A stretch of DNA of 60,018 nucleotides from a bacterium (GTDB lineage: Bacteria > Margulisbacteria > Marinamargulisbacteria > JABIPA01), in contig JABIQV010000001.1 of NCBI GenBank assembly GCA_018699495.1, positions 1 to 60,018 of the forward strand. The letters are read 5' to 3'. The notes beneath the pieces were generated by a model that saw only the letters and a list, made by a program, of their open reading frames with translations, ran no database searches and was not told the DNA's origin. This document shows, piece by piece, positions 2,551-6,273 of this stretch; the stretch's first letter is position 1; each line of letters starts with the position of its first letter. The position numbers and the translations under genes are program-made.

Positions 2551-4563
2551 ATGAATCTTGGATTATCTTTAATTTTGACACTTTCTATATTCTTGACCAC
2601 TTATGGTCTATTTATTTTTCTAAACGTTTCCAAGATAAAAACCGACACGCCTGACCAGAACTTCGTTACGGGCCTAGTTATTGATGGCCTTAAAGCATAC
2701 TGGTATCGCCTATTTAGTTCGATTATCCAAGTTTTAATCTCTTTAATTGCGGTCGTTGCATTATTTACTTATTTTTTTGACAAACTGTTTATGGTGGACC
2801 AAATTCTGGGGTTCCTTATGGGCGGAATTGCTATGCTTCTTGTTTCTTTTGTTAGTTTTACATTATATCCTAAACTCATTCCAGCGATAATCAGCCAAAA
2901 TTTAGGGTACTTAAAAGATGGGATTCTTATTCAATATAAAACGACATCCTCTCTGTCATTTTTAATCAATAGCCTCCCCATGATTTTTCTTTGTATTTCG
3001 TTGTTAATATTTGATATAGAGGTCATTATTGGATTTAGTTTAGGGCTAATATTCACGGCATTATTTTTACGCATTGGTGGAGGTCTTTATTATACTAGTT
3101 CAGATTTGGCTAACCAATTAAGTTTCGAATTTGGTGAAAACATTCCTCAGGACGACAAACGCAACCCAGGTTCAATCATGGAACTTATTGGGATTTATAT
3201 TAGCCAAATAACTGGATTCATTTGCGATGTTTTAGGGTCGTACATATTTTCGGTTGCAGGCTGCTTATTAACCATATTTAGCCTGACAAAATTTCAAATC
3301 GTGCCCAATGAAATACTTAACAACTTTTATTTTTTTCCTTTTATGATGATATTTTCTGGTCTTTCATCATCGTTTATTTCTTATTTTTATTGTGTGGTTA
3401 GAATCAAAAATGGAAAACACTCAAATTTTCTGCTCGAAGGAATTTATTTATCTATTATCCTGTGCGGATTTTCTGCGTTTATTGTTTCCCGAATTACCGC
3501 CAATCAAATTGTTTCGTTCTTGCCGTTTATATTTGGTCTAATTGGGGCCATTTTAATATGTTTTTTATCTGAATACATTACCTCTCAACGGTTTCAGCCG
3601 AGTAAACCATCTTGCAGCACTGCCCAATTTGGAAGTATTCTTCCTTTTTTAAGCAGTAGTTCTTTAGGATACAAGACAAATAGTGTTTTTTTATTTATTT
3701 CGTTTTCCTTTCTCTCTGCTAGTTATTTGGTTTCCGGTACCGTTGGAATGATTATCGCAATATTTGGATTTGTTTCTGTTACGCACACTATTTTACAAAC
3801 CAAGATCTTCTCTCATTTTTCTGTAATAACTTCAAAACTCTCGACACTTAGCTCTGCAAAACAAATATCGATGCACCATCTAAAAAAAACAGAGGAGATA
3901 GGGTCTACCACAGTAGCCGTTGGAAATGGATATGCCACTGCAGCAGCGATTCTTGCAACGTTTTCTATATTATTTTCATTTATTTATATTCAGCACTACG
4001 ATTTCAAATCACTCCTTATCGTTGATTTTAGATTACTCATAGGGATTCTTATTGGGCTAACATTACCTTTCACCGTTGTAAGTTACTTATTGAAAGCTCT
4101 ATCTTCACAAACCATTACCATTCTTAAAGAGATATCGAGGCAATACAAAGAAATTCCTTATTTAATGGAAAACAAATCACATCCAGACATTATTCGGCTA
4201 TCTGACCACACAACCTTCATGTCTATGAACGCCATGATTGTCCCAGGAATCCTTATTGGACTCGTTCCCATAGCATTGGGTTTCGTTTTTGGAATAAAGC
4301 TCAGCATAGGCTTAATAATCGGCTGTTTTTTTACAGGATTCAATCAAGGCCTCTTTTGGGCAGTTACCGGAGATAGCCTTCATTTTGCTAAACGTCATAT
4401 CGAAGATGGTCATTTTGGAGGTAAAAATAGCGAGACGTTCTATAATATTCGAAGTGTTGATCATATTGGGAAGGCCTATCGTGACCTTTTAAATCCAACC
4501 TTAAATATTTTAATAAAGGCCGTTACAATTATTTCTATCTTTGTCATTTTAAATCTTGCGTAA
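2551..4563 (+). CDS. Degenerate membrane-bound pyrophosphatase (HppA) homologue, probably not a hydrolase
   Basis: A 670-aa protein with about 15-16 hydrophobic segments that aligns without gaps to ion-pumping membrane pyrophosphatases in several blocks: RIGGGLY and DDKRNP (174-206), EEIGSTTVAVGNGY (448-461), the REIPY-like segment KEIPYLME, and GHFGGK to LNPTLNILIK (620-656). Fold and length match the family. Catalytic positions do not. In the first motif D185 and D226 remain, but the second aspartate is Q189, the lysine is E193, and the DN-VGDN-VGD series reads E211, I215, Q219. The DNAGG block is absent, and in the last motif the second Asp is K641 and the Lys is R644. I infer a non-hydrolytic membrane protein (transport, sensing or scaffold). 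It is followed closely by tpiA and a cyclophilin gene. Confidence 0.75.
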   Translation: MNLGLSLILTLSIFLTTYGLFIFLNVSKIKTDTPDQNFVTGLVIDGLKAYWYRLFSSIIQVLISLIAVVALFTYFFDKLFMVDQILGFLMGGIAMLLVSFVSFTLYPKLIPAIISQNLGYLKDGILIQYKTTSSLSFLINSLPMIFLCISLLIFDIEVIIGFSLGLIFTALFLRIGGGLYYTSSDLANQLSFEFGENIPQDDKRNPGSIMELIGIYISQITGFICDVLGSYIFSVAGCLLTIFSLTKFQIVPNEILNNFYFFPFMMIFSGLSSSFISYFYCVVRIKNGKHSNFLLEGIYLSIILCGFSAFIVSRITANQIVSFLPFIFGLIGAILICFLSEYITSQRFQPSKPSCSTAQFGSILPFLSSSSLGYKTNSVFLFISFSFLSASYLVSGTVGMIIAIFGFVSVTHTILQTKIFSHFSVITSKLSTLSSAKQISMHHLKKTEEIGSTTVAVGNGYATAAAILATFSILFSFIYIQHYDFKSLLIVDFRLLIGILIGLTLPFTVVSYLLKALSSQTITILKEISRQYKEIPYLMENKSHPDIIRLSDHTTFMSMNAMIVPGILIGLVPIALGFVFGIKLSIGLIIGCFFTGFNQGLFWAVTGDSLHFAKRHIEDGHFGGKNSETFYNIRSVDHIGKAYRDLLNPTLNILIKAVTIISIFVILNLA

Positions 4564-4596: not shown

Positions 4597-5385
4597 ATGA
4601 GAAAGCCAATAATTGCTGCAAACTGGAAAATGAATAAAACGATCAAAGAAAGTCAATTATTCATGCAGAAGTTTTTATTTGATTACACACCTATTAGCTG
4701 TGACATCGTAATTTGTCCGCCCGTAACTGCTCTTTCGAGTGTAGGATCGATTATCTCTGGTTCTTCGTACAGTTCCTCTATAAAATTAGGAACTCAAAAT
4801 TGTCACTGGGAAGAAAAAGGGGCTTACACAGGTGAGGTTTCATTGCCTATGCTCAAAGAATTTTCCGTAAATTCCGTTATCATCGGACACTCAGAACGAC
4901 GCCAATATTTTTCAGAAACGAACCAAACCGTGAATAAAAAACTTAAAGCAATTTATTCTCAAAATTTGCGTCCGATATTCTGTATTGGCGAATCATTAGA
5001 GCAACGAGAAGCTGGGAATACATTCACTGTATTGTCAACGCAATTAAATGAAGGTCTTGATGATATTTCGATTACATCTGGTGAAGATATTGTTATTGCG
5101 TACGAACCTATATGGGCCATTGGCACAGGAAATGTAGCGACTCCAAAACAAATTCAAGCTGTTCATTCGTTTATCCGAGAAACGTTATCTGTATTATTTT
5201 CTCCATCTATTGCATCAGCCATTCGTATTCAATACGGAGGTTCTGTTAAACCATCAAACATTGAATCGATCATGCAATTAAAAGACGTAGATGGGGCATT
5301 GGTAGGTGGTGCAAGTTTAGAACCAGACGACTTTATGAGTCTTATACAGATAGCTTGTAAAGCTAAAGAACAGATACGTTCATAA
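4597..5385 (+). CDS. tpiA: Triose-phosphate isomerase
   Basis: TIM interconverts dihydroxyacetone phosphate and glyceraldehyde 3-phosphate in central glycolysis. The 262-aa sequence shows all signature elements: the N-terminal substrate-binding N9 and K11 (AANWKMN), the catalytic histidine in IIGHSERR, the catalytic glutamate in AYEPIWAIGTG with the flexible loop, and the phosphate-binding YGGSV and GALVGGASL near the C-terminus. A GAAGGAG ribosome binding site lies 8 nt before the ATG. It begins 33 nt after the pyrophosphatase-like gene and precedes the cyclophilin gene, suggesting one transcript. No other glycolytic gene is nearby. Confidence 0.97.
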   Translation: MRKPIIAANWKMNKTIKESQLFMQKFLFDYTPISCDIVICPPVTALSSVGSIISGSSYSSSIKLGTQNCHWEEKGAYTGEVSLPMLKEFSVNSVIIGHSERRQYFSETNQTVNKKLKAIYSQNLRPIFCIGESLEQREAGNTFTVLSTQLNEGLDDISITSGEDIVIAYEPIWAIGTGNVATPKQIQAVHSFIRETLSVLFSPSIASAIRIQYGGSVKPSNIESIMQLKDVDGALVGGASLEPDDFMSLIQIACKAKEQIRS

Positions 5386-5413: not shown

Positions 5414-6046
5414 ATGATACATTTTACAAACACTTTTTTTATCAAACGTCTTAAACAATTAGCCCCTTTTATTGTGCTAATCGCTCTGTCACTAAACATA
5501 TGGGCTGAACCCCAACCAAAAATTCTTATCCAGACTAATAAAGGAGATATCATTCTTGAACTAGATGCCGAAAAAGCACCTCTTTCCGTCAAAAACTTTA
5601 TAACCTACACAGAATCGGGATTTTATACCGACACAATATTTCACAGAATCATTAAAAACTTCATGATTCAGGGAGGCGGGTTTACAAAATCATTTGACCG
5701 TAAAAAGGTTAATTCGCCAATTAAAAATGAAGCTAAAAATGGTTTGAAAAATAAAAAAGGAACAATTTCAATGGCCAGAACAAACGTTTGGGATAGTGCG
5801 ACATCTCAATTTTTTATAAATTTGGTAGATAACGGATTTTTAGATAATCAATATGCAGTATTTGGAAAGGTAATCACAGGTATTGAAGTTGTCGATAAAA
5901 TTGGAAACTTAAAAACACAAGCGTTAAACTCTTCATTTCAAAACATTCCCTATGAACCAGTCGTAATAAAATCAGTTACGGTACTAGGAAATAAAAAAAC
6001 GAATAACGCACCGTCCTCTAATAAGAGCACAGAGATACGTAAATAA
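5414..6046 (+). CDS. Secreted cyclophilin-type peptidyl-prolyl isomerase
   Basis: A 210-aa PpiA-like cyclophilin that isomerises Xaa-Pro bonds during folding of exported proteins. Residues 1-31 form a signal peptide (basic N-terminus, hydrophobic core, ending WAEP), so the mature protein is periplasmic or lipid-exposed. The cyclophilin core from residue 37 has TNKGDIILEL, the active-site block FHRIIKNFMIQGG and ATSQFFINL, and the closing FGKVITGIEVVDKI. A lysine/serine-rich tail of about 20 residues follows. An AAAGGA ribosome binding site precedes the ATG, 28 nt after tpiA. It is the last gene of the 2551-6046 cluster. Confidence 0.93.
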   Translation: MIHFTNTFFIKRLKQLAPFIVLIALSLNIWAEPQPKILIQTNKGDIILELDAEKAPLSVKNFITYTESGFYTDTIFHRIIKNFMIQGGGFTKSFDRKKVNSPIKNEAKNGLKNKKGTISMARTNVWDSATSQFFINLVDNGFLDNQYAVFGKVITGIEVVDKIGNLKTQALNSSFQNIPYEPVVIKSVTVLGNKKTNNAPSSNKSTEIRK

Positions 6047-6113: not shown

Positions 6114-6233
6114 TTGTTTGCTAGTCGACTAAACTAATAAATAGTTTCTTTATTCTCAACACTTTAAGATAAGTTGATAAAGATCTAGCGCCCCTTAACG
6201 AAAAAAGCGAATCCTTGGAGATTCAAAAAAAGT

Positions 6234-6273
6234 TCAGGTGGAGTTTTGTATTAATACAAAACTCCACCTGAAG
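6234..6273 (-). terminator. Strong intrinsic terminator of folD, 40-bp perfect palindrome
   Basis: Positions 6234-6273 form a 40-bp perfect palindrome, giving an 18-bp or longer hairpin with the GC-rich outer block CAGGTGGAG. On the minus strand it lies 26 nt after the folD stop and is followed by CTTTTTTTG, the classic U-tract. Reading from the plus strand it is only followed by an A-rich run, so the main direction is folD termination, with possible protection against transcripts from the left. Confidence 0.85.

Follow-up and report, generated by a model that had tools for sequence, protein, structure and literature searches.

A stretch of 60,018 nucleotides (hereinafter, the window) from a bacterium of the class Marinamargulisbacteria, phylum Margulisbacteria (assembly GCA_018699495.1, contig JABIQV010000001.1, positions 1 to 60,018 of the forward strand), encodes a homologue of membrane pyrophosphatases (mPPases) that has the full length and the predicted fold of the family but not a working hydrolytic centre. 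We denote this pseudo-mPPase, together with its orthologues in the same class, X. As judged from sequence comparisons, X appears to be held by strong purifying selection and to do some other job than the splitting of pyrophosphate (PPi). Conceivably, an ancient and vertically inherited branch of the mPPases has exchanged PPi-driven pumping for a role, independent of PPi, as a gated ion conductance or as a regulator at the membrane, the gate being kept and the motor dismantled, although we advance this part of the interpretation only tentatively.

2551..4563, + strand: X, pseudo-mPPase, 670 amino acids, full length, with the 16-helix mPPase fold but no working hydrolytic centre

By fold and descent, X is a member of the mPPase superfamily, without belonging to the catalytic family. 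The only significant Pfam family for the window protein is H_PPase (PF03030; 272.6 bits against a cut-off of 29.7, 1e-80), the match spans profile positions 5-644 of 645, and assignment to another family is thereby ruled out. All matches in a phmmer search of the PDB are mPPases (e.g., 4av3 at 3e-49). The AlphaFold2 model of the window protein, built with 27 homologues, has a mean predicted local distance difference test score (pLDDT) of 90.0 and a predicted template modelling score (pTM) of 0.90 and displays the 16-helix mPPase fold; in a Foldseek search with this model, all 36 matches at E<0.001 are mPPases, with the best template modelling scores (TM-scores) at about 0.88-0.90 (0.90 to 8b21_B and 0.9 to the Thermotoga maritima mPPase). 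The NCBIfam equivalog models for mPPases all reject the window protein (at best 270.8 bits against a cut-off of 546); the catalytic copy encoded in the same genome clears its equivalog cut-off (945 against 894 bits). The original prediction, which was made from the DNA letters and had recognized a full-length mPPase homologue, is borne out by the Pfam profile, the PDB matches and the predicted fold, and the motif positions quoted in it (RIGGG at 174, IPQDDKRNP at 198, GSTTVAVGNGY at 451, GHFGGK at 620 and LNPTLNILIK at 647) are all correct.

The 16 residues of the hydrolytic centre were taken from PMC6882861, and the roles of the active-site and gate residues from PMC6882861 and PMC5150537, with the Vigna radiata enzyme (VrPPase) as the alignment reference. 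Motifs I, II and III align with VrPPase without gaps and in the same register in a pairwise HMMER alignment and in two MAFFT alignments, so the missing residues are not brought back by improving the alignment, and misalignment is excluded as the source of the losses. In the window protein, nine of the 16 residues are lost, namely, K250 (K5.58, replaced by T182), D257 (D5.65, Q189), E268 (E5.76, Q200), D283 (D6.39, I215), D287 (D6.43, Q219), D507 (D11.57, V425), N534 (N12.43, S452; PMC6882861 numbers this residue differently), D691 (D15.61, H611) and D727 (D16.35, K641), and two are replaced conservatively, D279 (D6.35) by E211 and K730 (K16.38) by R644. Outside this list, K261, E263 and K541 (K12.50) of VrPPase are replaced by E193, G195 and N459, respectively, and D11.50 is lost as well. 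The claim that the catalytic residues are replaced thus stands for Q189, E193, E211, I215, Q219, K641 and R644 and for the missing DNAGG block, but it went too far inasmuch as five residues are kept: D253 (D5.61) as D185, D269 (D5.77) as D201, K694 (K15.64) as K614, D723 (D16.31) as D637 and D731 (D16.39) as D645.

3070..3249, + strand: former motif I, helices 5-6 (R174-F233); R174, D226 and S230 kept, K250T, D257Q, E268Q, D279E, D283I and D287Q replaced, G229 and F233 at glutamate sites
3802..3927, + strand: former motif II, helices 11-12 (K418-N459); DNAGG turned into VITSK, with D507V, G511 replaced by K429 (lysine in most X), N534S and K12.50 replaced by N459
4381..4518, + strand: former motif III, helices 15-16 (H611-K656); D691H, D727K and K730R replaced, D637, D645, K614, N652 and K656 kept

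In the published mechanism, D6.43 and D16.39 form the pair of water-activating aspartates, with K12.50 as a partner (PMC5150537); the window protein has Q219, D645 and N459 in these positions. The pump glutamate is absent at all three known positions, 5.43, 6.53 and 6.57, which are occupied by I167, G229 and F233. The hydrolytic centre that defines a catalytic mPPase (EC 7.1.3.1) is, then, missing from this protein. Because most of the metal and PPi ligands, the nucleophile-activating Asp6.43 and Lys12.50 are gone, and because the semi-conserved glutamate is absent, the window protein very probably can neither hydrolyse Mg-PPi nor pump in the canonical manner. One might still imagine that the active site has been rebuilt, so that X is a pyrophosphatase or phosphohydrolase after all, or that it acts on another phosphate substrate, given that the window protein still has D185, D637, D645 and K614, that the orthologues in three genomes of the class (G006, G011 and G016) keep D253, D257, D279, D283, D287, D727, K730 and D731, and that no other PPase was found in G011. 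The leftover acidic residues, however, differ by lineage, with almost none in family f5, so that there is no common catalytic set, and in the window protein, K641 and R644 take the places of a Mg ligand and a PPi-binding lysine; this alternative seems highly improbable to us.

The ion gate has fared differently from the hydrolytic centre. The window protein retains the gate charges R5.50 (R174), D6.50 (D226) and K16.50 (K656) along with S6.54 (S230) and N16.46 (N652), so that the greater part of the gate and of its charge network is still there. The charges at 5.50, 6.50 and 16.50 are present in all 24 X proteins of the class (with one Arg to Lys and two Lys to Arg replacements), and none of the 24 has an acidic residue at 5.43, 6.53 or 6.57. 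Over 23 X proteins, the five gate positions are retained at a mean of 87%, compared with 26% at the 20 hydrolytic positions that were counted and 42% at a further 138 invariant positions (P of 0.002 for the gate and 0.011 for the hydrolytic positions under random draw, a simple test that ignores phylogeny).

An X orthologue of about 650-700 amino acids is encoded in 24 of the 27 genomes of the class, and homologues with the same residues replaced and a shared gene order are found across the whole class. K5.58 (K250) and D15.61 (D691) are lost in all 24 and D11.57 in 23, and the other active-site aspartates have been lost in varying combinations, lineage by lineage, up to the X proteins of G005, G012 and G017, in which nearly the whole active site is gone; the model of the G005 protein still retains the many-helix mPPase architecture (pLDDT 86, pTM 0.89). 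The X proteins also have invariant residues of their own, namely, Q60, N292 and E296 (in 18 of 18) and K429, which takes the place of the DNAGG glycine in 89%, and the loop 13-14 is their most conserved segment. In other families of the phylum (f19, f21 and f23), eight genomes encode a less eroded orthologue that keeps K5.58 and, mostly, D6.35, D6.39, D11.57 and D15.61, with D5.65, D5.77 and D6.43 lost in all eight. In the phylogenetic tree, the class X and these copies comprise one clade (support 100/99.9) that is separate from the catalytic copies.

The genome of the window (2.1 Mb in 171 contigs, 85.5% complete) also contains a normal hppA gene: the mPPase encoded on contig C95 (769-774 amino acids) has all the catalytic residues, so X is a divergent paralogue. 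Selection was measured against the only other genome of the genus that was compared (G001; contig JABIPA010000004.1, Saanich Inlet metagenome-assembled genome SI072_bin107), in which the X gene contains an in-frame stop codon, TAA for CAA, at codon 84 (L009 6250-6252).

2800..2802, + strand: codon 84 of X, CAA, encoding Q84, a residue that 89% of 18 X proteins share; replaced by TAA in the congener

Over the 586 codons after this stop, the ratio of the nonsynonymous (dN) to the synonymous (dS) substitution rate is 0.021 for X, as low as the 0.020 of the catalytic mPPase in the same pair of genomes; the other values for this pair are 0.031 for mgtE, 0.052 for folD, 0.059 for the clpX-like gene, 0.061 for tpiA, 0.077 for leuA and 0.12 for recO. 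The slowest stretch of X, residues 135-268 (dN 0.013), holds the ruined motif I, in which a single amino acid change, D201N, separates the two congeners, so the degenerate site is itself constrained. These values agree with the earlier suggestion that the gene is selected rather than decaying. That X is a decaying pseudogene, as the stop codon and the higher dN upstream of it (0.065 compared to 0.027 downstream) could be taken to mean, is hardly credible in view of a dN/dS of 0.02 past the stop, equal to that of the catalytic paralogue, of reading frames that are intact in eight further orthologues and in 23 other genomes of the class, of the conserved operon position and of the X-specific invariant residues. 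As to the signs of decay that the original prediction had named, frameshifts and relaxed selection in close relatives, the copy of the congener has the one in-frame TAA, and selection behind it shows no sign of being relaxed. Given that dS is near 1.3 and that selection is not relaxed downstream of the stop, the TAA can be explained by a mutation of very recent date, by a mistake in the assembly or by readthrough. Taken together, the sequence data make it almost certain that X is an old orthologous branch of mPPases, distinct from the catalytic copy of the genome and subject to strong purifying selection, which is spread through the class and has less eroded counterparts elsewhere in the phylum, in other families.

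X lies at the head of a short run of genes in the window, with the following two downstream.

4597..5385, + strand: tpiA, triosephosphate isomerase, the conserved immediate downstream neighbour of X
5414..6046, + strand: cyclophilin-type peptidyl-prolyl isomerase, the third gene of the X-tpiA-ppi run

Within the class, X is upstream of tpiA in 23 of 24 genomes (directly so in 21), the cyclophilin gene is downstream in 19, and recO and mgtE are often upstream of X. In the families f19, f21 and f23, the partly eroded mPPase is directly upstream of tpiA in seven of the seven readable cases, and in those of these runs that were checked by Pfam and motif, genes for a class II aldolase (fba) and a phosphofructokinase (PFK) of 561-568 amino acids with the GGDDS motif follow; we take this motif to be the mark of PPi-dependent PFKs. 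The PFKs of the class are mostly of the GGDDS type, including that of the window's genome, and four catalytic mPPase genes from other parts of the phylum (G035, G051, G054 and G056) do not adjoin tpiA. The view that the cotranscribed tpiA and cyclophilin genes do not explain X therefore has to be qualified: tpiA is not an accidental neighbour, since its pairing with X persists throughout the class and recurs in further families of the phylum. The promoter of its own that had been attributed to X is not supported, the region having seven consensus matches compared to 16.2 in shuffled sequences, although there is one extended -10-like site at 2515-2544. A functional link with the Mg channel gene mgtE was considered and set aside: many genomes of the class have mgtE-recO immediately upstream of X, but the genome of the window has this pair on another contig, C81, X standing only with tpiA and the cyclophilin gene, and the other families lack it.

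As the likeliest mechanism, but tentatively and with clearly less than even odds, we propose that X started out in a PPi-based glycolysis operon (mPPase-tpiA-fba-PPi-PFK) as its mPPase, lost hydrolysis stepwise and now owes its survival to the membrane half. There, the R174-D226-K656 network of buried charges, with S230, would have stayed as an ion gate; the altered cytoplasmic funnel, to which K429, N292/E296 and loop 13-14 with its high conservation belong, would open or close it; and X would provide cations with a gated path or leak that does not depend on PPi and that ties the membrane potential to the glycolytic state. For the old orthologous branch, the absence of hydrolysis and of canonical pumping, and the gated cation path jointly, we put the probability at roughly 0.4.

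The same gene neighbourhood is compatible with a membrane scaffold or sensor for PPi glycolysis, that is, a pseudoenzyme that moves no ions and either reports the PPi or Mg level or anchors TpiA, the aldolase or the PFK via its cytoplasmic loops. The conserved tpiA linkage, fba and the PPi-PFK in the same run in the other families, the prevalence of GGDDS-type PFKs in the class and the conservation of loop 13-14 all fit such a role, and so do the f23 copies, which keep most of the PPi ligands but have lost D6.43, as expected of a non-hydrolysing binder. However, the window protein and f5 have lost most of the lysines and aspartates that bind PPi, which means that PPi sensing cannot be what is conserved throughout the class, and a scaffold would have no need for the buried gate charges, which are the best-kept polar residues. 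We regard this alternative as only slightly less likely than the gated cation path.

A regulatory partnership, in which X takes the place of one protomer in the catalytic mPPase, could be envisaged because mPPases are homodimers with functional asymmetry (PMC9408878, PMC6882861), and many class genomes contain both genes. In four genomes from three families (G007, G016, G019 and G024), however, X was found together with a family I soluble PPase and no catalytic mPPase, which opposes an obligate heterodimer; these assemblies are 66-84% complete, so that no single absence counts for much, but the exchange follows a consistent pattern. A hidden replacement by a soluble PPase of family II was looked for as well, and the DHHA2 domain was detected in none of the 27 class genomes. 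Furthermore, X is not adjacent to the catalytic gene, except in G003. Such a partnership is accordingly improbable.

Several observations weigh against the gated cation path that we favour. The R-D-K network may serve only the folding of a helix bundle with buried charges and not conduction. The f19 orthologues of G028 and G037 lack R5.50 and D6.50 although many catalytic residues are kept, and the orthologue of G031 lacks both gate residues as well, so the gate is not kept across the wider clade. The less eroded class members in G006, G011 and G016, which have most of the N-terminal aspartates, might, judging by these residues, still bind Mg-PPi. The deep branching order is unsure because the X branches are long and their composition is unusual, and the claim of orthology leans on synteny. 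The stop codon in the congener described above belongs here, too.

Some further features of the gene neighbourhoods deserve mention. In G003 (L090, G003:C106:1-12000), X, tpiA, a GGDDT-type PFK and a catalytic mPPase are encoded in one run, so that both paralogues are in one PPi-glycolysis cluster. In G002 and G007 (L080 and L087), a homologous open reading frame of 188-197 amino acids intervenes between X and tpiA. In the window, a gene oriented divergently from X (1038-2486, - strand) encodes a 482-amino-acid ClpX-like AAA protease subunit with a divergent N-terminus, and at 6233-6272, between the cyclophilin gene and folD, there is an 18-bp hairpin with a T run, which has a strong intrinsic-terminator shape on the - strand.

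Apart from X, the window's genome encodes a separate group of divergent mPPase-like proteins of about 750-790 amino acids, at C95:56.2-58.5k (L040), at C98:67-69.4k (L042) and at the end of C24 and the start of C115 (L100 and L041), with members of the same group in relatives (G001 L099, G007 L098, G016 L097 and G008 L101/L102). These proteins mostly keep K250, D253, D257 and D279 and have lost D287 and the gate Asp294. Several of the genes are followed by genes for a homologous protein of 130-172 amino acids and a protein of 690-980 amino acids, of which those scanned have no Pfam match; the three genes possibly make up a system. In L040 (728-3904), the mPPase-like gene follows two ATP-citrate lyase genes (PF16114/PF24948 and citrate-synthase/CoA-ligase domains).

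If the proposed interpretation is true, X would be the first known motorless member of the mPPase family of primary pumps. The mPPases are regarded as being among the simplest and oldest primary ion pumps, and there is continuing debate on how hydrolysis is coupled to the movement of ions; a natural branch that has given up the motor and held on to the gate charges shows which parts of the fold are dispensable and offers a protein in which the ion path could be studied without catalysis. The series from the catalytic copy through possible binders without hydrolysis to nearly empty active sites is a readable record of the change from an enzyme to a pseudoenzyme. There is also a warning for annotation: PF03030 alone labels such proteins sodium- or proton-translocating pyrophosphatases, which is probably wrong for many genes in this phylum.

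Compared to the well-characterized mPPases (EC 7.1.3.1), such as the Na+-PPase of T. maritima and the H+-PPase of V. radiata, X has in common the length, the 16-helix fold, the motif register and the gate residues R5.50, D6.50, S6.54, N16.46 and K16.50, and differs by the dismantled hydrolytic centre, the loss of K12.50 and D11.50 and the lack of the semi-conserved glutamate. The described subfamilies are classed by the pumped ion, K+ dependence, the position of the glutamate and regulation by Na+ (PMC6882861 Table 1); they share the fold and the gate position with X, but they hydrolyse PPi with their hydrolytic centre, whereas X is without a working one. No inactive or divergent mPPase branch, and no subfamily devoid of the hydrolytic centre, was found in the reviews and full-text literature, within what is open-access. 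Inactivated membrane enzymes as such are not without parallel, the iRhoms among the rhomboid proteases being membrane pseudoenzymes. With these, X has in common that the enzyme fold is kept, catalysis is lost and purifying selection acts on a new role; the fold is, however, a different one, and X, unlike the iRhoms, keeps the ion gate of a primary pump.
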